The notes under the pieces are model-generated. The model made no database searches. It saw only the letters and a program-made list of their open reading frames with translations, and was not told the origin of the DNA. The position numbers and the translations under genes are program-made. From contig NZ_CALMYP010000057.1 of the NCBI RefSeq assembly GCF_937873615.1, forward strand, positions 62,001 through 126,000: a stretch of 64,000 nt of DNA. Direction: 5' to 3'. How positions within the stretch are numbered: position 1 is the first letter of the stretch; each line of letters starts with the position of its first letter. This DNA is from an uncultured Paracoccus sp. Its GTDB lineage: Bacteria; Pseudomonadota; Alphaproteobacteria; Rhodobacterales; Rhodobacteraceae. Of this stretch, positions 7,401-23,510 are shown one piece after another.

Positions 7401-8126
7401 TTATCTTGATTGCTGTGGGGTGCCGCCCGATCTGGCGGCCAACAGCCGCGCCCGATACGAACGCTCCAGATGGCGCCCCATCACATCGGTTGCCGTCATC
7501 ATGTCACCGTTCAGGACAGCCACATAAATGGCGCGATGTTCCTCGTGGGCCGTTGCATCGTGCCGCGCCGGATCGTCGACCGGTGGTCGCTGTGCAAGCA
7601 GATCCGAGACGAACATGTCGTGCAGCGTCAGGATCACCGGATTGCCGACGATCGAGACCAATGCACGATGAAAGGCGATGTCGGTTTCCGCAAATCGTGA
7701 GGTCCCGATGGCGGCCTCATTCTGATCCAAAGCGTCCTGAAGCCGAGCGATCTGAACCCGGTCACCGCGGATCGCAGCCTCTCTGGCTGCACCGATCTCG
7801 ATGAACTGGCGCATCTGCTCAAGATGCGCGCCGCCTTCGGCATCGCCCATGACTTCGCGGATATTTCCGGCGGCTGACTGCAGGATCGCCTGCAGCGACG
7901 GGCGACTGGCACGAGGGCGACGCCCGCCGCCGGCATCCAGAAAGCCGCGCATCTGCATCTGTGACAGTGCCTCGCGCACGGTCGGACGCGACGCATCGAA
8001 CCGGTCGCACAGCTCGCGCTCGGGCGGCAACGCCTGGCCCTGCGCGATATCACCACGCCGGATCTCTTCGATCAACTCACAGGCGATCAGGTCTGGCAAG
8101 CGAATCACATTGACTGAATCCCCCAT
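7401..8126 (-). CDS. nanR: GntR/FadR-family regulator of sialic acid catabolism
   Basis: A 241-residue repressor with an N-terminal winged helix-turn-helix (about residues 12-75, including LPPERELCDRFDASRPTVREALSQMQMRGF) and an all-helical FCD ligand domain in the C-terminal two thirds. FCD-type GntR proteins usually bind TGGT-N3-ACCA sites, and exactly such a site lies 30 bases upstream. In E. coli NanR releases DNA when it binds N-acetylneuraminate; the same logic is likely. It heads the nanR-siaPQM-nanEK operon, so the regulator is autoregulated. Start ATG 8126 has the strong ribosome site GGAGGGGG. Confidence 0.88.
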   Translation of the reverse strand: MGDSVNVIRLPDLIACELIEEIRRGDIAQGQALPPERELCDRFDASRPTVREALSQMQMRGFLDAGGGRRPRASRPSLQAILQSAAGNIREVMGDAEGGAHLEQMRQFIEIGAAREAAIRGDRVQIARLQDALDQNEAAIGTSRFAETDIAFHRALVSIVGNPVILTLHDMFVSDLLAQRPPVDDPARHDATAHEEHRAIYVAVLNGDMMTATDVMGRHLERSYRARLLAARSGGTPQQSR

Positions 8127-8143
8127 GCCCCCTCCTGCATTGG

Positions 8144-8172
8144 TTGATGGTATTTTGGTATTACCATAAAAT
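8144..8172 (+). promoter_or_regulatory. nanA promoter with embedded NanR operator
   Basis: A sigma70-like promoter for nanA reads TTGATG (8144-8149), 17-bp spacer, TAAAAT (8167-8172). The spacer contains TGGTATTACCA (8156-8166), a perfect TGGT-N3-ACCA site of the FadR/FCD class, so repressor binding would cover RNA polymerase. The half-site TGGTAT also occurs 8 bases earlier (8148-8153), giving two direct repeats that recall the GGTATA repeats bound by E. coli NanR. On the other strand TTGACA (complement of 8179-8184) could be the -35 element for nanR, so one operator can control both directions. Confidence 0.75.
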
Positions 8173-8231
8173 ATATATTGTCAAACAGAAAAAGAAAATT
8201 ATGCTTACATTACGAATTTTGGGGGATCACC

Positions 8232-9122
8232 ATGACCAGAAAACTCGCGGGCATGTATGCGGCGCTGATGACCGGACTCGATGACAATGGGGCGTTCAGC
8301 CCCGACCGCCAGCGGGGCCTTGACGAATATGTGCTGCGACAGGGGCTGACCGGGCTTTATGTCGGCGGCAGCAGCGGCGAATCCGGCCTGCTCGACACGG
8401 AGGAACTGCTCGCGCAGCAGGAAATCGTTGCACAGGATGCACCGGACACTGTGTTGATCGCCCATGTCGGGGCGCCCAGCCTGCGCGATTCCATCCGGTT
8501 GGCGAAAAATGCCGCGAAGCTGGGCTATCATGGCCTGTCGGCCCTGCCACCGCATTCCTATCCCTTCACGGATGCCGAGATCTGTGCCTATTACCGCGAC
8601 CTTCAGGCAGCGACTGACCTGCCGCTGATCGTCTATGAGGTGCCGGTTCGAACCGGACGCCCCATCGCCATCGAGGTTCTGACCGAGATCCTTGCCATGC
8701 CCAATGTCACGGGGCTGAAATTCACGTCGACGGACATGTTCAAGCTCTCCATGCTTCGCCGCGCCTGCCCCGATTCGACGCTGTTTTTCGGGTTTGACGA
8801 GATCTATCTGTCGGGCGCGGTGATCGGGGCCGATGGCGGTATCGGCACCACCTACAATCTTCTGGGCAAACTCTATGTCGCGCTGGATCGGTCGATCCGC
8901 AACGGCGACATGACAGAGGCACAACGGCTTCAGGATATTTCCGCCCGCTTTGTCGAGGCGTTGCTGGCAACAGGCGTCCTGCCCGGCATGAAGGCCGCCT
9001 TGCGTGCCATCGGCATTGACGCAGGCCCCACCCGCGCACCGATGGCCATGCGCGTCGACGATGGCGAAGCGCGTATGGCCGCGCTGATGGCGAAGCCCGA
9101 CTTTGCCGAATGGATCGCCTGA
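8232..9122 (+). CDS. nanA: N-acetylneuraminate lyase
   Basis: NanA splits N-acetylneuraminate into N-acetylmannosamine and pyruvate. The 296-residue protein is a class I aldolase of the DHDPS/NAL family: YVGGSSGE (43-50), the tyrosine in LIVYEVPVRTG (Y135) and the Schiff-base lysine in TGLKFTS (K163). I chose ATG 8232 (MTRKLAGMYAAL) because a ribosome site GGGGGA lies 6 bases upstream and homology starts there; an upstream TTG would lie in the promoter region. It is transcribed divergently from nanR and its product feeds NanK and NanE. Confidence 0.9.
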   Translation: MTRKLAGMYAALMTGLDDNGAFSPDRQRGLDEYVLRQGLTGLYVGGSSGESGLLDTEELLAQQEIVAQDAPDTVLIAHVGAPSLRDSIRLAKNAAKLGYHGLSALPPHSYPFTDAEICAYYRDLQAATDLPLIVYEVPVRTGRPIAIEVLTEILAMPNVTGLKFTSTDMFKLSMLRRACPDSTLFFGFDEIYLSGAVIGADGGIGTTYNLLGKLYVALDRSIRNGDMTEAQRLQDISARFVEALLATGVLPGMKAALRAIGIDAGPTRAPMAMRVDDGEARMAALMAKPDFAEWIA

Positions 9123-9255
9123 CAAACGGCTTCAATTCTACGAAGGGGGCTGTGCCGGGGGGCGGTGGGCACGATCCCGGCATGGATCAACCGCCCCGAG
9201 GCGTCGTGACGATCTCGGTCGATGCAGAAGCCAGGGCGGATTCACCAACCGAGCC

Positions 9256-9861
9256 CTAGCGCAGCGGGATCGCGTTCTCAGCCTTGGCCCCCTGATAAGC
9301 CTCTGACAGTGCCGCATATTCCGCCCGGATCGCATCGACCCGCGCCCGCAATGCGCCCTGCGCCGCAGGATCCGCACCGCCAATGACCTCATCGACCGAG
9401 CGCGCCACCCAATAGGCATTCTCGCGACGGTAGCCACCGGGATCGAGCGTGAATACCTCTTTCAGGATCTTCAGGTCATGCGGGATGGCAAAGCTGTCGC
9501 GGCTGTCCTCATGGGTGAAGAAATCGAAGAAATTGTCGAACCCGGCCCAGGTGATCGCCGAAAGACACATCGAGCAGGGCTCGTGCGTGCTGAGAAAGAT
9601 CAACTCGTCGGGTGGCGGCAGGCCCTCGACCTCGTGATAGCGCTTCAGCAGATGCACCTCGCCATGCCAGAGCGGGTTCTCGGTCTCGTTATTGGTTTCC
9701 GCCAGAACCACCGCGCCATCGGATTTGCGCAGAAGCGCCGCCCCGAAGATCTTGTTGCCCTGCGCCACGCCCTGCCGGGTCAGGGGCAGGACATGATCTT
9801 CCAGCGCGCCCAGAAACGCGCCGGCAAGATCGGTATCGGTCAAGTGGATCGGCTTGTTCAT
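9256..9861 (-). CDS. Nucleoside/cytidine deaminase-like protein
   Basis: A 201-residue cytoplasmic zinc hydrolase with the deaminase motifs HGEVHLL (H66, E68) and HEPCSMCLSAI (cysteines 96 and 99), the HxE...PCxxC set that binds zinc and activates water. Family members deaminate cytosine, guanine, or modified pyrimidines and purines; the FFTHEDSRDSFAIPHDLKILKEVF tail is not diagnostic to me. The start ATG 9861 (MNKPIHLTDT) is favoured since an upstream extension would overlap the lrp gene. Transcribed alone from the strand opposite nanA. Confidence 0.8.
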   Translation of the reverse strand: MNKPIHLTDTDLAGAFLGALEDHVLPLTRQGVAQGNKIFGAALLRKSDGAVVLAETNNETENPLWHGEVHLLKRYHEVEGLPPPDELIFLSTHEPCSMCLSAITWAGFDNFFDFFTHEDSRDSFAIPHDLKILKEVFTLDPGGYRRENAYWVARSVDEVIGGADPAAQGALRARVDAIRAEYAALSEAYQGAKAENAIPLR

Positions 9862-9908
9862 GCTTCTTGCTAGGCCGCCGAGACAGCGGGTGCAAGCCGT
9901 CGCCCCCC

Positions 9909-10367
9909 CTAGCTCGACAGGTGAAAGCCACGGAATTCCTTCACCGTCGACAGGCTCAGCAGGGTCTTCATCTGCGCGACGGAAGGAATGAGCGTCAGGC
10001 GCTCGCGATAGAGCTTCTCGTAATCCTCCGTATTCCTTGCCGCAACCCGCATCAGATAGTCGAACTCCCCCGAGATGAGATGGCATTCGAGTACCTCGGG
10101 CATGTCGCGGATGGCGGCTTCGAACCCCTCGATATCCTCGCGGCGCTGACCGGTCAGCTTGGCCTCGATGAAAACCTGGATATGCAGCCCGACCAGCTTG
10201 CGGTTCAGCCGGGCGGCGTAGTGAGAGATTTTCCCATCCGCCTCCAGCAGCTTCACCCTTCGGTGGCAGGCCGAAAGCGACAGCCCCACCTGTTCGGACA
10301 GCCGCGCCATGGAGGTTTGGCCATCCCGCTGCAGAATGGAAAGAATACGGATATCCAACCTGTCCAT
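9909..10367 (-). CDS. Lrp/AsnC family transcription regulator
   Basis: A 152-residue regulator with the N-terminal helix-turn-helix (DRLDIRILSILQRDGQTSMARLSEQVGLS...HRRVKLLE) and the C-terminal RAM amino-acid sensing domain (GEFDYLMRVAA, TLLSLSTVKE). Lrp proteins form octamers and respond to amino acids. It is divergent from the usp gene and, beyond it, an AGCS amino-acid symporter, so an amino-acid responsive control of that symporter is plausible. A GTG start 15 bases upstream (10382) is possible; MDRLD is the usual family N-terminus. Confidence 0.88.
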   Translation of the reverse strand: MDRLDIRILSILQRDGQTSMARLSEQVGLSLSACHRRVKLLEADGKISHYAARLNRKLVGLHIQVFIEAKLTGQRREDIEGFEAAIRDMPEVLECHLISGEFDYLMRVAARNTEDYEKLYRERLTLIPSVAQMKTLLSLSTVKEFRGFHLSS

Positions 10368-10512
10368 CGGAAATTTTCTCACTCACATCACAATTTTCGT
10401 AATTATTCTATAATTTTTCTCGAATGAAAAGAAATAAGAGAACCTTTTCAACATCAAAACTTCTACCTTGAGGGCTCTAGCGAACAAGAAAAAACACACA
10501 GGAAGGTTAATG

Positions 10513-10947
10513 ATGGCTCACAAGATCGTCGTCGGATACGACGGCAGCGACAGCGCCAAGGCGGCGCTCAGTTTCGCTGTGAACGTGGCGCGTTTGCAGG
10601 GCGGCAGCATCGTCGTGGCGCATGTCCTGGAATGGTCGCCCTATTCGTTCCTCACCCCAAACGAGTTGGAAGAACGTCACAAGCGTCGAGGAGAGGAATT
10701 GGCCCGGGCAGAGGATGCGATCCTGTTGCCAGCGCTCAAGAAGCTCACGGAAAGCGGGGTCCCGATCAGCACCGCGCTGAAATATGGCCATATCGCCTCG
10801 ACCCTTGCCCAGATCGCCAAGGACGAGGGCGCCGATCAGATCGTGATCGGCCGCAATGGAGAGCCGGGCCTGGCATCGCGCGTGTTCGGGTCGGTCGCCA
10901 TCAGCCTGGCGCAAGGCGCGCCGGTGCCGGTCACCATCGTACCCTGA
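10513..10947 (+). CDS. Universal stress protein UspA family, ATP-binding type
   Basis: A 144-residue single-domain Usp. The N-terminal KIVVGYDGSD and the C-terminal G-x2-G-x9-GS motif (GRNGEPGLASRVFGS, residues 113-127) identify the ATP-binding subclass (MJ0577-like) rather than UspA proper. Two ATGs occur in tandem (10510, 10513); the second is preferred because the ribosome site GGAAGG then sits 6 bases upstream. The gene is 32 bases upstream of an AGCS symporter and probably cotranscribed. Usp proteins often sit beside transporters and may modulate them, which is inference here. Confidence 0.9.
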   Translation: MAHKIVVGYDGSDSAKAALSFAVNVARLQGGSIVVAHVLEWSPYSFLTPNELEERHKRRGEELARAEDAILLPALKKLTESGVPISTALKYGHIASTLAQIAKDEGADQIVIGRNGEPGLASRVFGSVAISLAQGAPVPVTIVP

Positions 10948-14753: not shown

Positions 14754-15932
14754 TCAGGATTGCGCGTCCCTCATCGACGCCGCACCTTCGCGGAGCAGGT
14801 CCAGGAATTCGCGCTGCGCCGCCGTCGGCTCCCATCCGGCGCGGGTGGTGATGCCGATGGGGCGCAGCGATTCGGGCAGCTCCAGCGGCAGCACACCGAA
14901 CGCCGAGGCCTCGCCCTCGGGCAGGGCCTGCACCCGCGACAGCGCGCCGAGGTAATCCGACTTGCGCAGGATCTCGCGCAGCAGGATCACCGAGGAGGTG
15001 ACGATGGCGCCGCGAATGCTGTCCTCGGGCAGAAGCGCCTCCAGCGCCGCGCGGATCGGTGTGCCGGGGCGGGCGACCACCCAAGGATAGGCGGAAAGAT
15101 CGGCGGGCGACACCTTGTCCTGCGCCAGCAGCGGGTGGTCGCGCCCGGCGACGATGACCACGGAATCGTCGAAAAGCGGCTCCTGATGGATATCCTCGAT
15201 CGGGCTCGGGATGCGCAGCGCACCGATCATCATGTCGATCTCGCCCCGGCGCAGCCCGGCCAGAAGCTCGTCATAGCGGCCGTCGATGACCTCGAAAGGG
15301 ATACCCGGATGGGCCTGACGGAAGGCCAGCATCGCGCCGGGCAGCAGGGTCGAGCGCGACAGCGGCAAGGCGGCGATGGTGATGCGCCCGACCTCTCGCC
15401 CGGCCAGGGCGGCCAGTTCGGCCTCGGCCTGTTCCATCTCGGCGAATGCCAGCCGCGCCGCCTGCGCCAGTTGCCGTGCCACACGGGTGGCGATCAGCCC
15501 ATGGGCGGTGCGTTCGAAGAAGCGCAGGCCCGCCGCCTGTTCCAGCATCGAGGCCGAGCGATGCACGGTCGGCTGCGCCAGCCCGAGCTGGCGCGCGGCA
15601 AGGGTGAAATTCTCGGTCTCGGTGACCGCGATCAGCGCCTGAAGCTGGGGCCGCGTCGCCTGAAAGCGGATCGCGCGGGCCATGTCGGCCATGGCCGCAT
15701 CGAGGAAAGCCAGCGCCCGCCTTGTCCGATGCGCCATCGCCTGCCCGGCCTCGTTCGGAAAGATCCCCTGCGGGCTGCGCTGGAACAAGGGCTGGCCGGC
15801 ATCGCGTTCCAGCTTGTTCATGGCCTGAGTCACCGCCGGTTGCGAGACATGACAGATCTCGGCCGTGCGGGTTACCGAATGGGTTTCGGCCAATGTCTGA
15901 AACATGCGCATATGGCGAATGCTGGGCTGCAT
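14754..15932 (-). CDS. LysR-family regulator with two tandem DNA-binding domains
   Basis: A 392-residue regulator, about 90 longer than a normal LysR protein. The extra length is a second N-terminal domain: HTH 1 at residues 5-65 (SVTRTAEICHVSQPAVTQAMNKLE) and HTH 2 at 96-155 (NFTLAARQLGLAQPTVHRSASMLE), followed by one periplasmic-binding-like effector domain (about 180-392). Start ATG 15932 has GGAGGA 6 bases upstream. It lies beside the tannase and gal genes in the same orientation and is the only regulator there, so it probably controls aromatic catabolism with gallate or a pathway intermediate as inducer (inference). Confidence 0.88.
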   Translation of the reverse strand: MQPSIRHMRMFQTLAETHSVTRTAEICHVSQPAVTQAMNKLERDAGQPLFQRSPQGIFPNEAGQAMAHRTRRALAFLDAAMADMARAIRFQATRPQLQALIAVTETENFTLAARQLGLAQPTVHRSASMLEQAAGLRFFERTAHGLIATRVARQLAQAARLAFAEMEQAEAELAALAGREVGRITIAALPLSRSTLLPGAMLAFRQAHPGIPFEVIDGRYDELLAGLRRGEIDMMIGALRIPSPIEDIHQEPLFDDSVVIVAGRDHPLLAQDKVSPADLSAYPWVVARPGTPIRAALEALLPEDSIRGAIVTSSVILLREILRKSDYLGALSRVQALPEGEASAFGVLPLELPESLRPIGITTRAGWEPTAAQREFLDLLREGAASMRDAQS

Positions 15933-16057
15933 GGTCTCCTCCGCGCCGGTCAGAGGGACCGGCGCGGCCATCATAACCCTATGAATGTCATAATGTTAAC
16001 TAGTGCTTTCAGTCAGAACGGCACGGCGATCCGGTGAGCCGCCGCACCACTCTTGGG

Positions 16058-17743
16058 TTAGTCGGCGAAGGCATAAGGTGCGAACAGGTCGGCCCCCGGC
16101 CAGTCGCGCAGGCGGACGATCTCGGCCGCGGGCCCCTCGGACCAGGTGGCGGCGTCATGCACATCGCCCTCGCCCGACCAGCCGGCCAGATGCGGATAGG
16201 GATAGACGGGCCGCGTCATCTCGGGCAGCGGCGCCACGCCCAGATCGAGCGGTGCCGGACGTCCGCCGCCACCGCCCACCCCGTCCGGCTGGCCGAAGCT
16301 GGACGCCTCGCCCGCCGTTGCGGTCATGATCGCACCCGGTGCGGCGCCGTCCTCGACCCAGGCCATCATCGGGCTGAGCAGGTCCAGATGGCTCGGCCCC
16401 TCGCCGCCGCCGCAATGATCGACGCCGGGCAACAGATAGAGACGTTCGAAACCGGCCATCGCCTCGGCCCCCAGAATCGCCTCGATCCCCGTGTGCAGGG
16501 CCAGCGTATTGGCCGGCGAGATATGCGGATCGGCCAGGCCATGCCACATGATCAGCTTGCCGCCGGCGGCATTGAAACCCGAAAGATCGGGGCTGGTGGC
16601 ATCGAACAGCGGGTGGCGCGGGCGCAAATCGTCCAGCACCGCCTCGGTGAAGTCCAGATCGGCCAGTGTCATCTCGGGCCGGGCCGGATCGAAGGCCAGA
16701 TATTTCAGAACCGGATCGACAATCATCTGCGAAAACAATTCGCTGTCGGCATTATCTGCGACATAGACGCCCTGCCAGTTCAGCTCGGAGCCGTAAAGCG
16801 GCTGGCCGGCGGTCAGATAGGCCCCGGTCGCGGCATCCTGCGGTCCGGCATAGAATTTCCGCACCACCTCGACCTGCGCGCCGGTCAGGCACCGGTCCGT
16901 TTCCGGCGCATCGGCCGGGCAACTGATCCGGTGCGGATCGAATTCGCACAGTGCCGGCTGGGCGATCAGCCCGTCCTTTACGCCATCGGTCTCGTCACAG
17001 GCGGCGACCACCGCCGCATGCAGTGCCGGCAGCTTCTTCGAGGTCAGGATCACCTCGCCCCGCTCATTGTAATTCGAGGCCGCCATCCAGCCGTGATAGA
17101 GCGTATTCTGCACCTGAAACAGCATCGCCGGCGCGCCGGCAATGACGCCGTCGAAATCCTCGGGGAAGCGCATCGCCGCCATCAGCCCCTCGCGCCCGCC
17201 ATCCGAGCAACCGTTGAAATAGCTGTATTGCTGCGGCTGGCCGTAATAGGCCGCGATCAGCGCCTTCGCCGCCTCGACGGTCAGATGCTGGGCGCGATAG
17301 GCGAAATCGGCCCGCTGGGTCGCATCGAGGCCCCATCTGCCGTCATTGCCGCCATGCCCCATATCGGTCGCGGCCATGACGAAACCGCCATCGTTCAGCA
17401 CCTTGCACCCGGTCGAGGCACCCGAGCGCAGGGTGATATTCCCGCACAGCCCGCCGCAGCCGAGTTGCAGATAGCGCTGCGTCCAGCTTTCCATGGGCAG
17501 GATCACCTGAAAGTTCACCTGCGGCGCCAGCCTGCCGGTGACGCTGCACACGGGGATGCCATCGCTGGTGGTTTCCTCGGCGCCGGTGATCTCGCTGCCT
17601 TCGCCGCCGATGGCGCCCATATCGGTGCCGATCAGACTGGCACAGGTGACCGCAGGCTTGACCACATCCAGCACCGCAGCCCTGCCAGGTGCGGCCCCCA
17701 ACCAGATCACGCAGGAAATAGCAATAAACTTCAATACATTCAT
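16058..17743 (-). CDS. Tannase/feruloyl esterase family hydrolase, secreted
   Basis: A 561-residue alpha/beta hydrolase with a signal peptide (residues 1-22). It carries the tannase-family catalytic arrangement: nucleophile serine in NGCSDGGREG (S180), an acid in HGLADPHISP, and the histidine in GVDHCGGGEGP. The cysteines next to Ser and His (GCS and DHC) form the disulfide that defines the CS-D-HC family. These enzymes cleave galloyl, feruloyl or terephthalate-type esters outside the cytoplasm. With GalB, GalC and GalD alongside, release of gallate from galloyl esters is the best reading; a MHETase-like or feruloyl activity cannot be excluded. Confidence 0.85.
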   Translation of the reverse strand: MNVLKFIAISCVIWLGAAPGRAAVLDVVKPAVTCASLIGTDMGAIGGEGSEITGAEETTSDGIPVCSVTGRLAPQVNFQVILPMESWTQRYLQLGCGGLCGNITLRSGASTGCKVLNDGGFVMAATDMGHGGNDGRWGLDATQRADFAYRAQHLTVEAAKALIAAYYGQPQQYSYFNGCSDGGREGLMAAMRFPEDFDGVIAGAPAMLFQVQNTLYHGWMAASNYNERGEVILTSKKLPALHAAVVAACDETDGVKDGLIAQPALCEFDPHRISCPADAPETDRCLTGAQVEVVRKFYAGPQDAATGAYLTAGQPLYGSELNWQGVYVADNADSELFSQMIVDPVLKYLAFDPARPEMTLADLDFTEAVLDDLRPRHPLFDATSPDLSGFNAAGGKLIMWHGLADPHISPANTLALHTGIEAILGAEAMAGFERLYLLPGVDHCGGGEGPSHLDLLSPMMAWVEDGAAPGAIMTATAGEASSFGQPDGVGGGGGRPAPLDLGVAPLPEMTRPVYPYPHLAGWSGEGDVHDAATWSEGPAAEIVRLRDWPGADLFAPYAFAD

Positions 17744-17761: not shown

Positions 17762-18823
17762 TCAGGCGCGCGGAAAGACACGCCCGTCAAAGAGCTTCCG
17801 TGCCGTGCGCAGGGTGCCTGCGGCAACCATCCTGCCTGCGCCATCCGTCTCGATCAACACCTCGGCCGCGCCGCCCGGATGCTCGACCAGATAGCGGCCA
17901 TCCGCCGGGATCGAGGCCAGTTCCGCCGCCGGAGAGCCCTTCAAGGTGCAGGCCGTGGCCACGCTGACGGCGGCAAAAACGCCGATGGTGGCATGGGCGC
18001 GATGCGGAATGAAGCTGCGGGTATTGATCGCGCCCCCATGCGCGGGGCTTGAAACCAGCGTCATCTTCGGCACCGATTTCTCGGTCACATCGCCCAGATT
18101 CATCATCGGCCCGACCGCCAGCCGGATCTTCTCGATCCGCGCCTTCAGATCGGCATCGGCGTCCAGATCCTCGCGGCTTTCCTGCCCGGTCAGCCCGAAA
18201 TCGGCGGCCCGCATGACCACGATGGGCATGCCGTTGTCAATCAGCGTGCAGTCCACGCCCTCGACGACATCGACGGCATTCCCGGTCGGCAGCAGCGCCC
18301 CGGTCATGGAGCCGGCGATGTTCTGAAACATCAGCGGAATCGGCGCGGCGGTCCCCGGCACCCCGTCAATCGCGGCCTCGCCATCGTAACGCACCCGCCC
18401 GCCCGGCGTATTGACCCGCGCCACGGCGATCTCTCCGGTGTTCAGCATATGGATGCGCACCACCGTTTCGCCATCCTCGGCCACGACCAGCCCGCGCTCG
18501 ATGGCTGCCGGGCCGACGCCGGCCAGAATATTCCCGCAGCCCTGCGCGCCGGAGACAAGCGGCCGGTCGACGAAAACCTGCAGGAACAGGTAATCCACAT
18601 CCGCATCCGTGCGAGAAGGCGGCCCGAGGATCGCCACTTTCGAGGTCAGCGGATCCGCCCCCCCGATCCCGTCGATCTGCGCCGCATCCGGGCTGCCCAT
18701 GACGCGCAGCAGCAGATCGTCCCGCGCCGCCTCATCCGCCGGCAGGTCCGAGGCCAGGAAATACGCCCCTTTCGAGGTTCCGCCCCGCATCCACAGGCAG
18801 GGCACGCCGTCATCATGGATCAT
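17762..18823 (-). CDS. galD: 4-oxalomesaconate tautomerase
   Basis: A 353-residue PrpF-family isomerase. It opens with VPCLWMRGGTSKGAYF and has the GAQGCGNILAGVGPAAIE cysteine motif plus SPAHGGAINTRSFIPHRAHATIGVFAA in the second half, as in GalD of Pseudomonas putida, which converts the keto form of 4-oxalomesaconate to the enol form. PrpF proteins share this fold with a different substrate, but the neighbouring galC and galB genes decide for GalD. Ribosome site GAAGGAAG precedes ATG 18823. A repeat element separates it from galC. Confidence 0.87.
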   Translation of the reverse strand: MIHDDGVPCLWMRGGTSKGAYFLASDLPADEAARDDLLLRVMGSPDAAQIDGIGGADPLTSKVAILGPPSRTDADVDYLFLQVFVDRPLVSGAQGCGNILAGVGPAAIERGLVVAEDGETVVRIHMLNTGEIAVARVNTPGGRVRYDGEAAIDGVPGTAAPIPLMFQNIAGSMTGALLPTGNAVDVVEGVDCTLIDNGMPIVVMRAADFGLTGQESREDLDADADLKARIEKIRLAVGPMMNLGDVTEKSVPKMTLVSSPAHGGAINTRSFIPHRAHATIGVFAAVSVATACTLKGSPAAELASIPADGRYLVEHPGGAAEVLIETDGAGRMVAAGTLRTARKLFDGRVFPRA

Positions 18824-18908: not shown

Positions 18909-19580
18909 CTAAAGATATTTCAACCCCTTCTCCTCCAACCGGGGCCGCATATTGTAGATATCGAGCCCCAATTCGCCCGCGGCCAGCCGCTTGCGCTTCG
19001 CCTCCTCGGCCTCCAGCCGCTTCGTTGCTGCGGCCAGCACCGCCTCGGCATCGGCGCGTTTGACCACACAAACCCCGTCATCGTCGGCCACGATCACATC
19101 GCCCGCCTCGATCGCCTGCCCGGCGCAGGTGATGGGGACGTTCACCGAACCCAGCGTCTCCTTCACCGTCCCCTGCGCGCTGACGGCCTTCGACCAGACC
19201 GGGAAACCCATCTCGGTCAGGTCGCGCACGTCGCGGACGCCGGCGTCGATCACCAGCCCCCGGCAGCCCCGCGCCATGGCCGAGGTCGCCAGCAGATCGC
19301 CGAAATAGCCGTTATCGCAGGGCGAGGTCGGGGCGAGAACCAGCACATCGCCATCCTGCAACTGCTCGATGGCAACATGGACCATCCAGTTATCGCCGGG
19401 CGGCGCGCTGATCGTCACCGCCGATCCGGCGATGCGGGCGCCTGCATAGATCGGGCGCATGTAGGATTGCAGGCAGCCGATTCGGCCCTGCGCCTCGTGA
19501 ACGGTGGCGACGCCGGCCTCTGCCAGCGCGTCGATGACCGCCGCCGGGGCGCGGGTGATATTCCGGACAACCTTTGTCAT
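18909..19580 (-). CDS. galC: 4-carboxy-4-hydroxy-2-oxoadipate aldolase (RraA-like)
   Basis: A 223-residue class II aldolase of the HMG/CHA aldolase family (LigK, ProA, GalC). It splits 4-carboxy-4-hydroxy-2-oxoadipate into pyruvate and oxaloacetate with a divalent metal. Diagnostic segments are [26 protein letters not shown] (with the R116-D117 pair of the active site) and [14 protein letters not shown]. Full family length. The last step of the gallate 4,5-cleavage pathway. It lies 3 bases downstream of the dioxygenase gene, so the two are cotranscribed. Confidence 0.92.
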
Positions 19581-19583
19581 GGT

Positions 19584-20549
19584 TCAGCCTTTCTTGACCG
19601 GCGGGGTGCCGTGAGTATGGAAGGATTCGATGGTTTTCAGCCCCCAGGCCTGCCCCTTCATGCGGTCGGCCTGGGTCCATTTCACCGGCTGCCAGTCCGG
19701 CGCCAGGATCAGCCGCGCCCCGGCATTGGCCAGTTCGACCCGGTTGCCCGCCGGTTCCCAGACATAAAGGAAGAACGTCCCCTGCACCGCGTGCTTGTGC
19801 GGGCCGGTCTCGATATGGACGCCGTTCTGAAGGAAGATATCGGCGGCGCGCAGGATGTCCTCGCGCTGATCGGTGGCATAGGTGACGTGATGCAGCCGCC
19901 CCATGCCGCCGCCATGTTCCTCGGTGCAGGCAAGGTCATAGGTCTTGTTGTTCACCGTGAACCAGCAGCCGCCAAGCCTGCCATTGTCGAGCTGGATATA
20001 TTCCGTCACCCGGCTGCCGAGACAGGTTTCCATGAAACGCCGGAACTCGGTCACGTCGTCCGACAACAGGTTCAGGTGGTCGATCCGCCGGGGTGCCGCG
20101 CCGGTGAAGGCGCTGGCGGTGTTCTTCAGCGCCGCACGCTCGGTCTCCTCCTGCGGCTCGAACCAGACGGTGTCGTAATAGATCTCGAAGACATGGCCGA
20201 ACGGATCCTCGAAACGGAAGGCGCGGCCATGGCTCTGGTCGCCCTCGATCCAGCCATGGGTCTTGTAGCCCGAGGCCTCGATGGCGGCGACCCGGCGTTC
20301 CAGCGCCTCGGGCGAGGCGGCGCGATAGGCGATATGCCCGACCCCGGTGGTGCCGGCCCGGGTCAGTTTCAGCGTGCAATGTTCGTAATCGTCCCAGGCC
20401 CGCAGATAGGCACTGTCCGCGTCGAGCCCCGACAGCTTCAGCCCATAGACGCGGGTGAAGAAATCAAGGCTCTCGTCGAACCTGTCGGTCAGCATCTCGA
20501 CATGGCCGAGATGGGCGAGGTCGAAACCGGGATTGGTGGGCGCGGACAT
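19584..20549 (-). CDS. Type I (VOC-fold) extradiol ring-cleavage dioxygenase
   Basis: A 321-residue two-domain vicinal-oxygen-chelate protein resembling catechol 2,3-dioxygenase. Each half is a VOC domain (HLGHVEM near 13-19; RIDHLNLLSDD from 155). The Fe(II) triad is intact: H158 (RIDHLN), H221 (LHHVTYA) and E272 (GNRVELANAG); the GPHKHAVQG...FLYVWEP stretch holds the usual second-shell His and Tyr. It sits between galB and galC, where gallate or protocatechuate dioxygenases of the unrelated LigAB/GalA class are expected and are absent. It is therefore the best candidate for ring opening of gallate here. Substrate is inferred from context only. Confidence 0.85.
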   Translation of the reverse strand: MSAPTNPGFDLAHLGHVEMLTDRFDESLDFFTRVYGLKLSGLDADSAYLRAWDDYEHCTLKLTRAGTTGVGHIAYRAASPEALERRVAAIEASGYKTHGWIEGDQSHGRAFRFEDPFGHVFEIYYDTVWFEPQEETERAALKNTASAFTGAAPRRIDHLNLLSDDVTEFRRFMETCLGSRVTEYIQLDNGRLGGCWFTVNNKTYDLACTEEHGGGMGRLHHVTYATDQREDILRAADIFLQNGVHIETGPHKHAVQGTFFLYVWEPAGNRVELANAGARLILAPDWQPVKWTQADRMKGQAWGLKTIESFHTHGTPPVKKG

Positions 20550-20636: not shown

Positions 20637-21368
20637 TCAAAGCTCGTCGACGGTGCGCGGGAAGATCGACTGGAAGCCCTCGGCATATTTCGCCTTGCGA
20701 CCGCCGCCCTGCCCGCCGGAATTGCGCATGAAGTGATTGGCGCGGTTCTCGGCGACGCGGGTGTAATATTCCCACAGATGTTCCTGCCCTTCCATGCATT
20801 CGATGGCGGCACGTTTCTTGTCCCAGACCGGAGTGATGTCGAGGAAGGTATCGGGCTTCCAGCCCATCTGCTCGGTCTGGTGCGGCTCGAACAGGTAAAG
20901 CTGCGGCGCGCCCAGCACCTTCTCGCCCGGGTTATGGCCCCAGGCCTGGGCGATCATCCGGCATTCCAGCGCCACCTGGGTCGCATACATGTGGTCGGTG
21001 TTATAGGGATCGTATTGGCTGTGGCTCAGCATGAAGCTGGGCTGGACCTTGCGGATCACCTCGACCAGCCGGAACTTGTCCTCCTGCGTCAGGTGCAGGG
21101 GATAATCGCCAAGGTCGAACTCGATCAGGTCATGCACGCCAAGCGCCTTGGCCGCCTTCTCGGATTCGGCGCGGCGGGCGGCCTTGACCCGGTCCATGGT
21201 CATGCCGTCCAGCTTCCACAGCTTTGCGCTTTCGCCGCGCTCGCCGAAAGACAGGCAGACGACGGTGACATCATAGCCCTTCTCGGCATGAAGCGCGATG
21301 GCCCCGCCGCAGCGCCAGACGAAATCGGCGGCATGGGCTGAAATCGCGAGGGCGGTTTTCTTGGTCAT
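20637..21368 (-). CDS. galB: 4-oxalomesaconate hydratase (PIG-L family)
   Basis: A 243-residue zinc-dependent hydratase. It matches the GalB pattern rather than de-N-acetylases: N-terminal ALAISAHAADFVWRCGGAIALHA, then VCLSFGERGESAKLW, SHSQYDPYNTDHMYA, APQLYLFEPHQTEQMGW and MAGQEHLWEYYTRVA-like ending (here MEGQEHLWEYYTRVA). GalB adds water to enol 4-oxalomesaconate to give 4-carboxy-4-hydroxy-2-oxoadipate for GalC. ATG 21368 is chosen because GGAGG lies 7 bases upstream; an upstream in-frame ATG at 21452 lacks family similarity. First gene of the gal operon, divergent from the TRAP permeases. Confidence 0.93.
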   Translation of the reverse strand: MTKKTALAISAHAADFVWRCGGAIALHAEKGYDVTVVCLSFGERGESAKLWKLDGMTMDRVKAARRAESEKAAKALGVHDLIEFDLGDYPLHLTQEDKFRLVEVIRKVQPSFMLSHSQYDPYNTDHMYATQVALECRMIAQAWGHNPGEKVLGAPQLYLFEPHQTEQMGWKPDTFLDITPVWDKKRAAIECMEGQEHLWEYYTRVAENRANHFMRNSGGQGGGRKAKYAEGFQSIFPRTVDEL

Positions 21369-21705
21369 GGTTTTCCTCCGTAGGGCCGGCAAGACGGGCT
21401 GATGGCAGGATTGCACCCGCGGGTCCCTCTGCGCAAATTTGAAGCACGGCAAGTTTCATAATTTTTTGCTAGTCAAATTCCTGAAAGATATTCCAAGCCC
21501 AAATAATGAAGGTGTTCCTATAGCAAAATTTTATCCCCAATTGACCGCTTTCTATTTTTCAAGCCGCACCGTCGCCCTTAAGCTGCATGTACGCTGAATC
21601 TTTTGCGGCCCGCGCCCGACGCGGGCCCGATCAGCCAGGAGGATAAGCAGTGTTGATTTCCGATGGCGTGGCATTTGCCCGCGCACCCGATGGGAGGACC
21701 AGTTC
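21369..21705. other. Divergent control region between galB and TRAP genes
   Basis: This 337-base gap has no gene of normal size. Its middle (21460-21560) is markedly AT-rich compared with its surroundings and holds the LysR-type motif described separately. Towards the TRAP side there is a GGCCCGCG/CGCGGGCC hairpin (21607-21627) and then a strong ribosome site CAGGAGGATAAGCAG that leads only to a GTG-initiated 22-codon frame (21650-21718) overlapping the start of the small permease. That orphan ribosome site suggests that a gene, most likely the TRAP binding protein, has been lost from this spot (inference). Confidence 0.6.
21465..21477. promoter_or_regulatory. Candidate LysR-type operator (T-N11-A)
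   Basis: TTTGCTAGTCAAA is a palindrome of the T-N11-A form recognised by LysR proteins, about 97 bases upstream of galB. The core TTTTGCTA recurs in inverted orientation (TAGCAAAA, 21521-21528) about 50 bases away. The double-headed LysR protein encoded at 14754 is the obvious candidate ligand. Evidence is motif shape only. Confidence 0.35.
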
Positions 21706-22209
21706 ATGCAGGCCGTAACCGATGCACGCCGGACCCGGCTTCTCGACCGGGTCACGCTCTGGCTGGCCTGGCTGGCCGGGCTGGCGCTGATCTTCATGGT
21801 CGTCATCATCTCGACCGGCGTGATGTTGCGCTATGTCTTCGGCACGCCGCTTCTGGGGCTGAACGAGATCAACCAGCTGACCGCCGTGGTGCTGGTCATG
21901 GCGGCGCTGCCCTATTGCACGCTGCATAACGGTCATGTCGGTGTCGATGTCTTCGACAATGCCATCGGCGCGGTGGGCCGTCTGCTTGGCGACGTGGTCT
22001 CTCGGCTGCTCTCGGGTTTCGTGCTGTCGGTGCTGGTCTGGCGGGCGGCGCTGAAGGCGCTGGATGCCTGGGAATACGAGGATGCGACCAATATGCTCGA
22101 CCTGCCGGTCTGGCCCTTCTATGCCGTGCTGGGCATCGGCGCGGCGCTTTGCGTGCTGATCTTCGCCGTGCAGCTGATCGACATCCTCAAGCGCGGAGGC
22201 CGGGCATGA
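21706..22209 (+). CDS. TRAP transporter small permease (DctQ family)
   Basis: A 167-residue four-helix membrane protein of DctQ type, with FMVVIISTGVMLRYVFGTPLLGLNEINQLTAVVLVMAALPYCTL as the conserved helix pair. It has the good ribosome site GGGAGGA and is followed by the large permease with a 4-base ATGA overlap. Divergent from galB, so it probably imports the aromatic acid or ester fragment used by the gal enzymes. Unusually no DctP gene lies upstream or downstream. Confidence 0.88.
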   Translation: MQAVTDARRTRLLDRVTLWLAWLAGLALIFMVVIISTGVMLRYVFGTPLLGLNEINQLTAVVLVMAALPYCTLHNGHVGVDVFDNAIGAVGRLLGDVVSRLLSGFVLSVLVWRAALKALDAWEYEDATNMLDLPVWPFYAVLGIGAALCVLIFAVQLIDILKRGGRA

Positions 22210-23510
22210 GCGGCACGACAGTCGGCCTTCTGGGCATCGCCCTTCTGTTCATCCTGATGGTCTTCCGCACCCCGGTCGCCTTCGCCATGCTGCTGGCGGG
22301 CTTCTTCGGCATGTGGGCGCTGGAAGGGTTCCGCACCGCCGGCGCCCTGATCCTGACCGAAAGCTATGGCGCCGTCGCCAGCGAGACGCTGATCGTGGTG
22401 CCGATGTTCGTGCTGCTGGGCAATATCGCCTCGGCGGCGGGCTTCTCGCGCGGGCTCTATGACGCCGCCTATGCCTGGGTCGGGCATTTCCGGGGCGGGC
22501 TGGCCTCGGCCTCGGTGCTGGGTTGCGCGGCGTTTTCCGCTGTCTCCGGCTCCTCCGTCGCCACCGCCGTCACCATCGGCAAGGTCGCCCTGCCCGAGAT
22601 GAAGCGGCTGGGTTATGCCGACAGCCTCGCCACCGGCTCGGTCGCGGCGGGCGGCACATTGGGGTTCCTGATCCCGCCCTCGACCGGCTTCGTGATCTAC
22701 GCCATCCTGACCGAGCAATCCATCGGCCGGCTGTTCATGGCCGGCATCCTGCCCGGTGCGCTGCTGATGATCCTGTTCATCGCCACCGTCTGGCTGATGG
22801 CCCTGCGCAATCCCACCGAGGCCCCCGCCGGCCCGAATGTCCCGATGGGCGAACGCTTCCGCATTCTCGGCCATGCCGCGCCGCTTCTGGGCGTCATGGT
22901 GCTGACCATCGGCGGCATCTATGTCGGCGCCTTCACCCCGGTCGAGGCCTCGGGCATCGGTGCCGGTCTGGTCATCCTGATCGCGCTTCTGACCCGCAAG
23001 CTGAACTGGCAGGGTTTCTACGAGGCACTGCTGGACACGCTGAAAACCTCGGCCATGCTCTATATGATCGTGATCGGCGCCAATGTGCTGAACCCGTTCT
23101 TCGCCGTGACCCAGATCCCGGCCACGCTTGGCGAGGGGCTGCAATCGCTGGGGCTCGGGCCTTACGGGACGCTTCTGGTCATCATCCTCGCCTATGTGGC
23201 GATGGGGATGTTCATGGACGGGCTGTCGATGCTGGTGATCTCGATCCCGGTGGTCTTCCCGGTGATCGTCGCCATGGGCTTCGACCCGATCTGGTTCGGC
23301 GTCGTCGCGGTGATCGTGATCGAGATGGGGATGATCACCCCGCCGGTGGGGCTGAACGTCTTCGTCGTGCGCGGCGTGGCCGGCGACGTGCCGCTGACCA
23401 CGGTCTTCCGCGGCGTGGCGCCCTTCCTGCTGGCGATGATCGTCGGACTGATTCTCATCATCCTGATCCCGCAGATCGCGCTGCTGATCCCGAATTCGAT
23501 GTTCGGATAG
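22206..23510 (+). CDS. TRAP transporter large permease (DctM family)
   Basis: A 434-residue protein with about 12 hydrophobic segments and DctM hallmarks: VVPMFVLLGNIASAAGFSRGLYDAAYAWVGHFRGGLASASVLGCAAFSAVSGSS, GTLGFLIPPSTGFVIYAILTEQSIGRLFMAGILPG and the C-terminal MGMITPPVGLNVFVVRG. Start ATG 22206 overlaps the small permease stop. It should form the transport channel of a sodium-driven importer, but needs a periplasmic binding protein which is not encoded nearby. A hairpin follows the stop codon. Confidence 0.92.
   Translation: MSGTTVGLLGIALLFILMVFRTPVAFAMLLAGFFGMWALEGFRTAGALILTESYGAVASETLIVVPMFVLLGNIASAAGFSRGLYDAAYAWVGHFRGGLASASVLGCAAFSAVSGSSVATAVTIGKVALPEMKRLGYADSLATGSVAAGGTLGFLIPPSTGFVIYAILTEQSIGRLFMAGILPGALLMILFIATVWLMALRNPTEAPAGPNVPMGERFRILGHAAPLLGVMVLTIGGIYVGAFTPVEASGIGAGLVILIALLTRKLNWQGFYEALLDTLKTSAMLYMIVIGANVLNPFFAVTQIPATLGEGLQSLGLGPYGTLLVIILAYVAMGMFMDGLSMLVISIPVVFPVIVAMGFDPIWFGVVAVIVIEMGMITPPVGLNVFVVRGVAGDVPLTTVFRGVAPFLLAMIVGLILIILIPQIALLIPNSMFG

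Follow-up and report, generated by a model that had tools for sequence, protein, structure and literature searches.

A VOC-fold protein encoded among gal genes in Paracoccus is a candidate gallate 4,5-dioxygenase

Extradiol opening of gallate yields a carboxylate, the carbon adjacent to the cleaved bond bearing a hydroxyl, and GalD can take the product directly; because of that hydroxyl, neither an aldehyde dehydrogenase nor LigC is needed. To our knowledge, 4,5-cleavage of gallate is known only from enzymes of the LigB fold. The reaction that we propose below for a different protein is that of GalA of Pseudomonas putida and DesB of Sphingobium SYK-6, which feed 4-oxalomesaconate to GalD, GalB, and GalC and which are assigned to the LigB (type II) superfamily in the AromaDeg account (PMC4250580). 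As substrates of type I extradiol enzymes, that account names catechol, dihydroxybiphenyl, dihydroxynaphthalene, homoprotocatechuate, dihydroxycumate, 2,3-dihydroxybenzoate, and others, and gallate is not in its list. According to the DesB paper (PMC3962378), the carboxylate of gallate is held in that enzyme by Thr13, Thr267, Tyr391', and Tyr412'. We found no report of a gallate dioxygenase of the VOC family in the literature searched, which took in few subscription papers and no bioRxiv preprints.

Here we describe a gene cluster in a 64,000-nucleotide stretch of DNA from an uncultured Paracoccus species (hereafter, the window). On the basis of sequence comparison, we propose that the product of one of its genes is probably an Fe(II) gallate 4,5-dioxygenase of type I (VOC fold), standing in for the structurally unrelated GalA/DesB.

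The VOC gene and its neighbors

The cluster consists of the following genes.

14754..15974, minus strand: LysR-type regulator, possible GalR (best NCBIfam match PcaQ, under the cut-off)
16058..17743, minus strand: tannase/feruloyl esterase family protein (PF07519, 424.5 bits)
17762..18823, minus strand: galD, 4-oxalomesaconate (OMA) tautomerase (NF033377, 512.6 bits, over the cut-off of 440)
18909..19580, minus strand: galC, 4-carboxy-4-hydroxy-2-oxoadipate aldolase (TIGR02798, 380.6 bits, over the cut-off of 304.5)
19584..20549, minus strand: VOC-fold (type I) extradiol dioxygenase-like gene, 321 amino acids, ATG start; proposed gallate 4,5-dioxygenase
20637..21368, minus strand: galB-like gene for a PIG-L protein (PF02585), proposed 4-oxalomesaconate hydratase; likely start at the ATG at 21368, after GGAGG
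21706..22209, plus strand: TRAP small permease, DctQ (PF04290), divergent from galB
22149..23510, plus strand: TRAP large permease, DctM (PF06808, TIGR00786), candidate uptake system

Read along the minus strand, the order is galB, VOC, galC, galD, tannase-family gene, and LysR gene, with successive gaps of 87, 3, 85, 18, and 83 bases. (The mechanically called open reading frame of galB begins farther upstream, at 21452.) The genes galB, galC, and galD thus lie together as in a gal-type gallate cluster, with the VOC gene between galB and galC as originally predicted; the products of galC and galD exceed curated cut-offs, and that of galB is a PIG-L protein. The possibility that GalD is instead an unrelated PrpF protein was rejected, as it passed NF033377. 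Judged by eye, the N-terminus of the tannase-family protein resembles a signal peptide, and no gene for a DctP binding protein was recognized among the open reading frames near dctQ and dctM (21706–23510). Such a gene is annotated next to the TRAP permeases in two related loci (L002 and L003).

An open reading frame for an extradiol dioxygenase of the VOC fold had been predicted at 19584–20549, and both the domain content and the fold of its product agree with that assignment. The protein matches PF00903 in two stretches (5.3e-21) and PF22247 at its N-terminal domain, and so has the two VOC/glyoxalase domains of the type I extradiol superfamily; unlike GalA and DesB it lacks the LigB catalytic domain, PF02900, in the Pfam scan. 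An AlphaFold model (pLDDT 86.2, pTM 0.88) was closest, among the 50 best matches in the Foldseek copy of the PDB, to 3lm4 and 7q2a (AphC), with query TM-scores of 0.88–0.90, and to other extradiol dioxygenases. Among NCBIfam models, HpaD covers most of the protein at a score under its cut-off, and TIGR03211, the catechol 2,3-dioxygenase equivalog, aligns over nearly the full length (residues 11–315), yet at 291.2 bits falls short of its cut-off of 320.2. Moreover, the eight cluster proteins scanned include no 2-hydroxymuconate-semialdehyde dehydrogenase or hydrolase, 2-oxopent-4-enoate hydratase, or 4-oxalocrotonate decarboxylase, and a catechol meta-pathway was rejected.

Linkage to gal genes and the distribution of LigA and LigB

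We sampled the best 80 of at least 567 confirmed relatives of the VOC gene, each with up to 10 kb on either side (less at contig ends), and sought gal genes in these stretches using the proteins of the window as tblastn queries. Homologues of galB were found in 70 loci (51%–94% identical; the window protein is also 60% identical to the product of a Pantoea gene annotated galB), of galC in 71, and of galD in 70. All three genes were present in 67 of the 80 stretches, at least one in 73, and the strict order galB–VOC–galC–galD on one strand in 60, it being understood that the loci are related to each other and do not represent 80 independent events. By comparison, an OMA tautomerase over the cut-off occurs in 40 of 385 genomes of the class, and a linkage in 67 of 80 loci is thus not a matter of chance. 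The seven loci with no gal gene in the stretch were L050, L060, L064, L072, L085, L086, and L099; six of the corresponding genomes have an OMA tautomerase over the cut-off elsewhere, the exception being the metagenome-assembled genome (MAG) of L072. Homologues of the LysR regulator (mostly 45%–54% identical) and of DctM also recur in many VOC loci.

The nearest loci to the window's VOC gene are from Paracoccus. Farther out, members of the Rhodobacterales, the Rhizobiales, and a few Gammaproteobacteria (Halomonas, an Arenimonas MAG, Pantoea, and Chimaeribacter) are intermixed in a rapidly built tree, which we read for broad grouping only, since support is weak for many of its branches and some are very long. 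Annotated plasmids with the same gene order are those of Thioclava, Agrobacterium (with a tannase gene), A. vitis, Rhizobium SL42, and Paracoccaceae La6, where a small hypothetical gene separates galB from the VOC gene. The intermixing and the plasmid copies in several genera suggest that the VOC gene has been transferred. Other arrangements exist as well. The VOC gene of Pantoea piersonii GABEKP28 comes after a gene for an aromatic acid/H+ symporter (MFS) and is divergent from galB–galC–galD–DUF1932, and on a Chimaeribacter plasmid the VOC gene has no gal genes within 9 kb. In a Paracoccus MAG, an esterase-like open reading frame (PF20434; L021, 11006–12802) lies between the VOC gene and galC, and its product is perhaps another tannin or feruloyl esterase.

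Two kinds of neighboring gene bear on the substrate. Tannase-family genes accompany the VOC gene in the window, in L022 (79% identical), in L048 (65%), and on Agrobacterium pAt (61%); just two of the 80 loci have one. Homologues of LigM, which acts with DesA in converting syringate to gallate in Sphingobium according to PMC6888825, are found in 11 of the 80 loci. They are 41%–88% identical to the LigM of L099, itself counted among the 11, which scores 617 bits against a cut-off of 580 and is the sole one checked with the family model. The tannase-family gene of the cluster and the LigM-type homologues together point to gallate.

Might the source genome (3.86 Mb, 99.6% complete) nonetheless hold a conventional enzyme? 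The original prediction had named a galA or desB homologue elsewhere in the genome as a finding that would count against it, and one was looked for with PF07746 (LigA) and PF02900 (LigB fold). The profile search with PF07746 gave no match in the source genome; the built-in control of that search was silent, and the same model gave matches in 23 of 41 class-sample genomes and in 8 of 47 genomes that carry the VOC gene. In the class-sample genomes it finds LigA subunits and also LigA domains in open frames of 421–477 amino acids, a size expected of fused GalA/DesB-type enzymes, and we call them such, putatively, from length and LigA domain alone. The sole PF02900 protein of the source genome has 278 amino acids and best matches the 4,5-DOPA-extradiol-dioxygenase model, under the cut-off. 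A hidden GalA, DesB, or LigAB was rejected on these grounds. Two more NF033377-type proteins are encoded in the genome, one on C29 (480.7 bits, over the cut-off) and one on C34 (341.4 bits, under it). The C29 copy (L149) is near a contig end, among open reading frames that by eye are tricarboxylate-transport-, two-component-, and aconitase-like.

It had also been proposed to look for galB–VOC–galC in genomes devoid of ligAB or galA, and the outcome was favorable. Fifty of the 80 loci were chosen, mainly those of isolates, with the lone-VOC loci added, and 47 of their genomes were searched, those of L054, L090, and L093 being left out. LigA gave no match in 39; five had strong matches (93.9–116.8 bits), each with a LigB gene beside it, and three had weak ones (27.7–33.1 bits). 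The LigB fold gave no match in 20 of the 47, and in 16 of those 20 the VOC locus includes galB, galC, and galD. Among individual loci, L074 has LigA and LigB in the VOC stretch, and at L047 a LigJ-like gene was found and galB gave no match.

Other results, like the five strong LigA matches, go against a simple picture. An OMA tautomerase scored over the cut-off in 40 class-sample genomes, of which 23 have LigA and 17 do not, and the VOC gene (at least 70% identity) is present in only three of the 17, namely the source genome, G040, and G107. Two genomes (G117 and G189) have both the VOC gene and LigA, and another (G361) has a 60%-identical VOC relative and neither OMA tautomerase nor LigA. The VOC protein is thus no general explanation for a missing LigA; there must be further solutions, redundancy, or additional roles for tautomerases of this family.

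The metal site and Tyr204

The intact Fe(II) triad foreseen by the original prediction is borne out by alignment. In homoprotocatechuate 2,3-dioxygenase (HPCD) the counterparts of H158, H221, and E272 are H155, H214, and E267, which we take to be its iron ligands, and each residue of the VOC protein's triad is found in all 81 rows (the window and the 80 loci; one row has an internal stop), giving the 2-His-1-Glu set.

The canonical catalytic set as a whole is not conserved, however, for the second-sphere catalytic histidine is missing. At the position of H200 of HPCD the VOC protein has Tyr204, and the alignments with HPCD and with AphC are gapless from W196 to residue 204. The tyrosine is present in all 81 rows of the VOC clade and also in PDB entry 9wgj, in the Roseomonas and Methylobacterium relatives, and in Thermus oshimai, whereas all nine outgroup rows (the 44%-identical relatives L016–L020, Thermus HB8, Rhodococcus, HpaD, and a XylE-like enzyme) have histidine. 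Four further residues, K202, H251, N275, and R279, are invariant in the 81 rows, and of these only K202 recurs in the outgroup, in one row. As judged from the titles in the Foldseek listing, H200 is the residue changed in the HPCD structures "H200N/Q/E/C." In the type I enzyme BphC, the authors of the DesB study name His194 as the catalytic histidine (PMC3962378). With Tyr204 where the usual catalytic histidine would be, catalysis by the VOC protein cannot simply be assumed. Tyr204 might serve in proton transfer in place of the histidine, or it might bind the third hydroxyl group of gallate.

A proposed gallate route, its rivals, and known enzymes

In the route that we envisage, the order of the genes, the fold family and metal triad of the VOC protein, the conservation, and the failure to find a LigA- or LigB-type candidate in the genome come from observation, whereas substrate, product, transport, and induction are inferred. 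The tannase-family esterase would free gallate from tannin esters, and gallate would be imported by the TRAP system here and by ABC or aromatic-acid MFS transporters in relatives. The VOC enzyme would bind two vicinal hydroxyls of gallate on its iron and cleave the ring to 4-carboxy-2-hydroxymuconate, the enol of 4-oxalomesaconate, which GalD, GalB, and GalC would then convert to pyruvate and oxaloacetate. The idea that the VOC enzyme is a non-orthologous replacement of the known gallate dioxygenases is thus supported at the level of comparative evidence, namely the linkage, the missing LigA and LigB candidates, the tannase-family gene, and LigM. On balance we also favor the broader view that the whole VOC clade, in the Alphaproteobacteria and some Gammaproteobacteria and with a deeper relative in Thermus, took over the 4,5-cleavage of gallate, and perhaps of protocatechuate in its deeper branches, with tyrosine in place of the catalytic histidine.

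A different substrate would be protocatechuate. The VOC protein would then be a 4,5-dioxygenase replacing LigAB with a type I enzyme, and the semialdehyde would be oxidized by an unlinked dehydrogenase and passed to GalD, GalB, and GalC, with or without a LigI-like lactonase. The strongest argument for this comes from a plasmid of Thermus oshimai (L176, 4342–12355), on which a 58%-identical Tyr-type VOC gene is clustered with genes for an aldehyde dehydrogenase, a DUF6282 protein, a PIG-L protein, an RraA-type aldolase, a DUF1932 protein, and 4-hydroxybenzoate 3-monooxygenase (pobA). From its gene content the cluster reads as one for protocatechuate 4,5-cleavage, in which the aldehyde dehydrogenase would make open-chain 4-carboxy-2-hydroxymuconate, and it may represent a LigAB-free pathway of this kind in the Deinococcota. 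It suggests that enzymes of the Tyr clade may be 4,5-dioxygenases of 3,4-dihydroxybenzoates, with the use of gallate belonging to the galB–VOC–galC–galD branch. Two further points in favor of protocatechuate are that L082 has LigA, LigB, LigC-like, and LigI-like genes in its VOC stretch and that 38 of the 80 loci have a homologue of a DUF1932/NAD_binding_2 oxidoreductase (tblastn, 1e-20).

The absence of LigC and LigI, on which the original prediction had relied, was upheld in part. It is true of the window, and no LigC-like orthologue was found in the rest of the genome (best match 29%), but a LigI-like protein is encoded elsewhere (56% identity), which again would suit protocatechuate; the queries were named "LigI" and "LigC" from their position in lig clusters of other genomes, their NCBIfam matches being below the cut-offs. 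Set against this, pobA, pcaH, and pcaG of the source genome are over their cut-offs, giving protocatechuate a route of its own. The cluster proteins scanned include no dehydrogenase, and they do include a tannase-family protein. Finally, LigC-like matches (at least 30% identity) occur in just one of the 80 loci and LigI-like ones (at least 62%) in five, and a LigC-dependent protocatechuate route is therefore not a common theme. We consider protocatechuate an unlikely substrate of the window's enzyme.

Two of the genes just mentioned have neighborhoods of some note. The LigI-like amidohydrolase of the source genome (L174, on C68, about 7766–10557) lies beside an open reading frame that by eye encodes a TRAP-like fused permease, and similar pairs are seen in VOC loci L084, L094, and L023; the pair is possibly a module for the uptake and hydrolysis of pyrone dicarboxylate that feeds GalD, GalB, and GalC. 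The DUF1932 oxidoreductase (examples are L003:7190–8065, L004:2402–3289, L160:7540–8415, and L176:9855–10622) also occurs beside other OMA-tautomerase loci, as it does in the Thermus oshimai cluster, and has no match in the window.

We give little credence to the proposal that the substrate is 3-O-methylgallate, as for a DesZ-like enzyme, or a gallate ester, cleaved to a methyl ester or to a pyrone dicarboxylate that the LigI-like lactonase would open. The LigM-type and LigI-like genes in some of the loci, and the LigI-like protein elsewhere in the source genome, are compatible with it, but most of the 80 loci have neither in the stretch, the source genome has no LigM over the cut-off (best score 21.4 bits), and a tannase would release free gallate. 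Least probable of all is cleavage of gallate to the same product by PcaHG or another intradiol enzyme, with a different role for the VOC protein: the source genome does have a third intradiol-family gene besides pcaH and pcaG, but this reading leaves unexplained both the strict order galB–VOC–galC–galD in so many loci and the association of the VOC gene with galB, galC, and galD on the plasmids of Pantoea and several other genera.

We also note that on a Roseomonas mucosa plasmid (L159, 3040–8975) a 60%-identical Tyr-type VOC gene adjoins genes for a class III extradiol dioxygenase and an alpha/beta hydrolase. From these neighbors, the deeper branches may have other substrates.

Should gallate indeed be the substrate of the window's enzyme, many Rhodobacterales and Rhizobiales would have a gallate and tannin catabolism that has escaped notice, its genes going by such names as "VOC family protein" or "catechol 2,3-dioxygenase." The enzyme would be a clear case of non-orthologous replacement at a key step of lignin and tannin breakdown, would provide lignin valorization with a small gallate dioxygenase made of a single chain, and would constitute a natural test of whether tyrosine can replace the second-sphere histidine in type I extradiol enzymes.

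How, then, does the VOC protein compare with enzymes of known structure? The closest solved sequence is PDB 9wgj, 49% identical, whose chain is named "Catechol 1,2-dioxygenase" and which has the same tyrosine at the position of the catalytic histidine. This entry is not among the 50 best Foldseek matches (the copy ends in April 2026), is at most 56.5% identical to the plasmid relatives of the VOC protein, and led to no relevant paper when searched for by its PDB code; as a solved Tyr-type relative it could lower the novelty of the gallate-dioxygenase reading. The closest folds, AphC and the 2,3-dihydroxybiphenyl dioxygenase of RHA1 (3lm4), are 34% identical and align at the metal triad, but have histidine where the VOC clade has tyrosine; the title of 7q2a describes a complex with 4-ethylcatechol. 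HPCD (PDB 1f1x) is likewise a type I enzyme, and its H248 and Y257 are kept in the VOC protein as H253 and Y262. Apart from the replacement of H200 by Tyr204, the VOC protein differs from HPCD in having T248 and G299 in place of R243 and R293, the two arginines that presumably bind the substrate carboxylate in HPCD.
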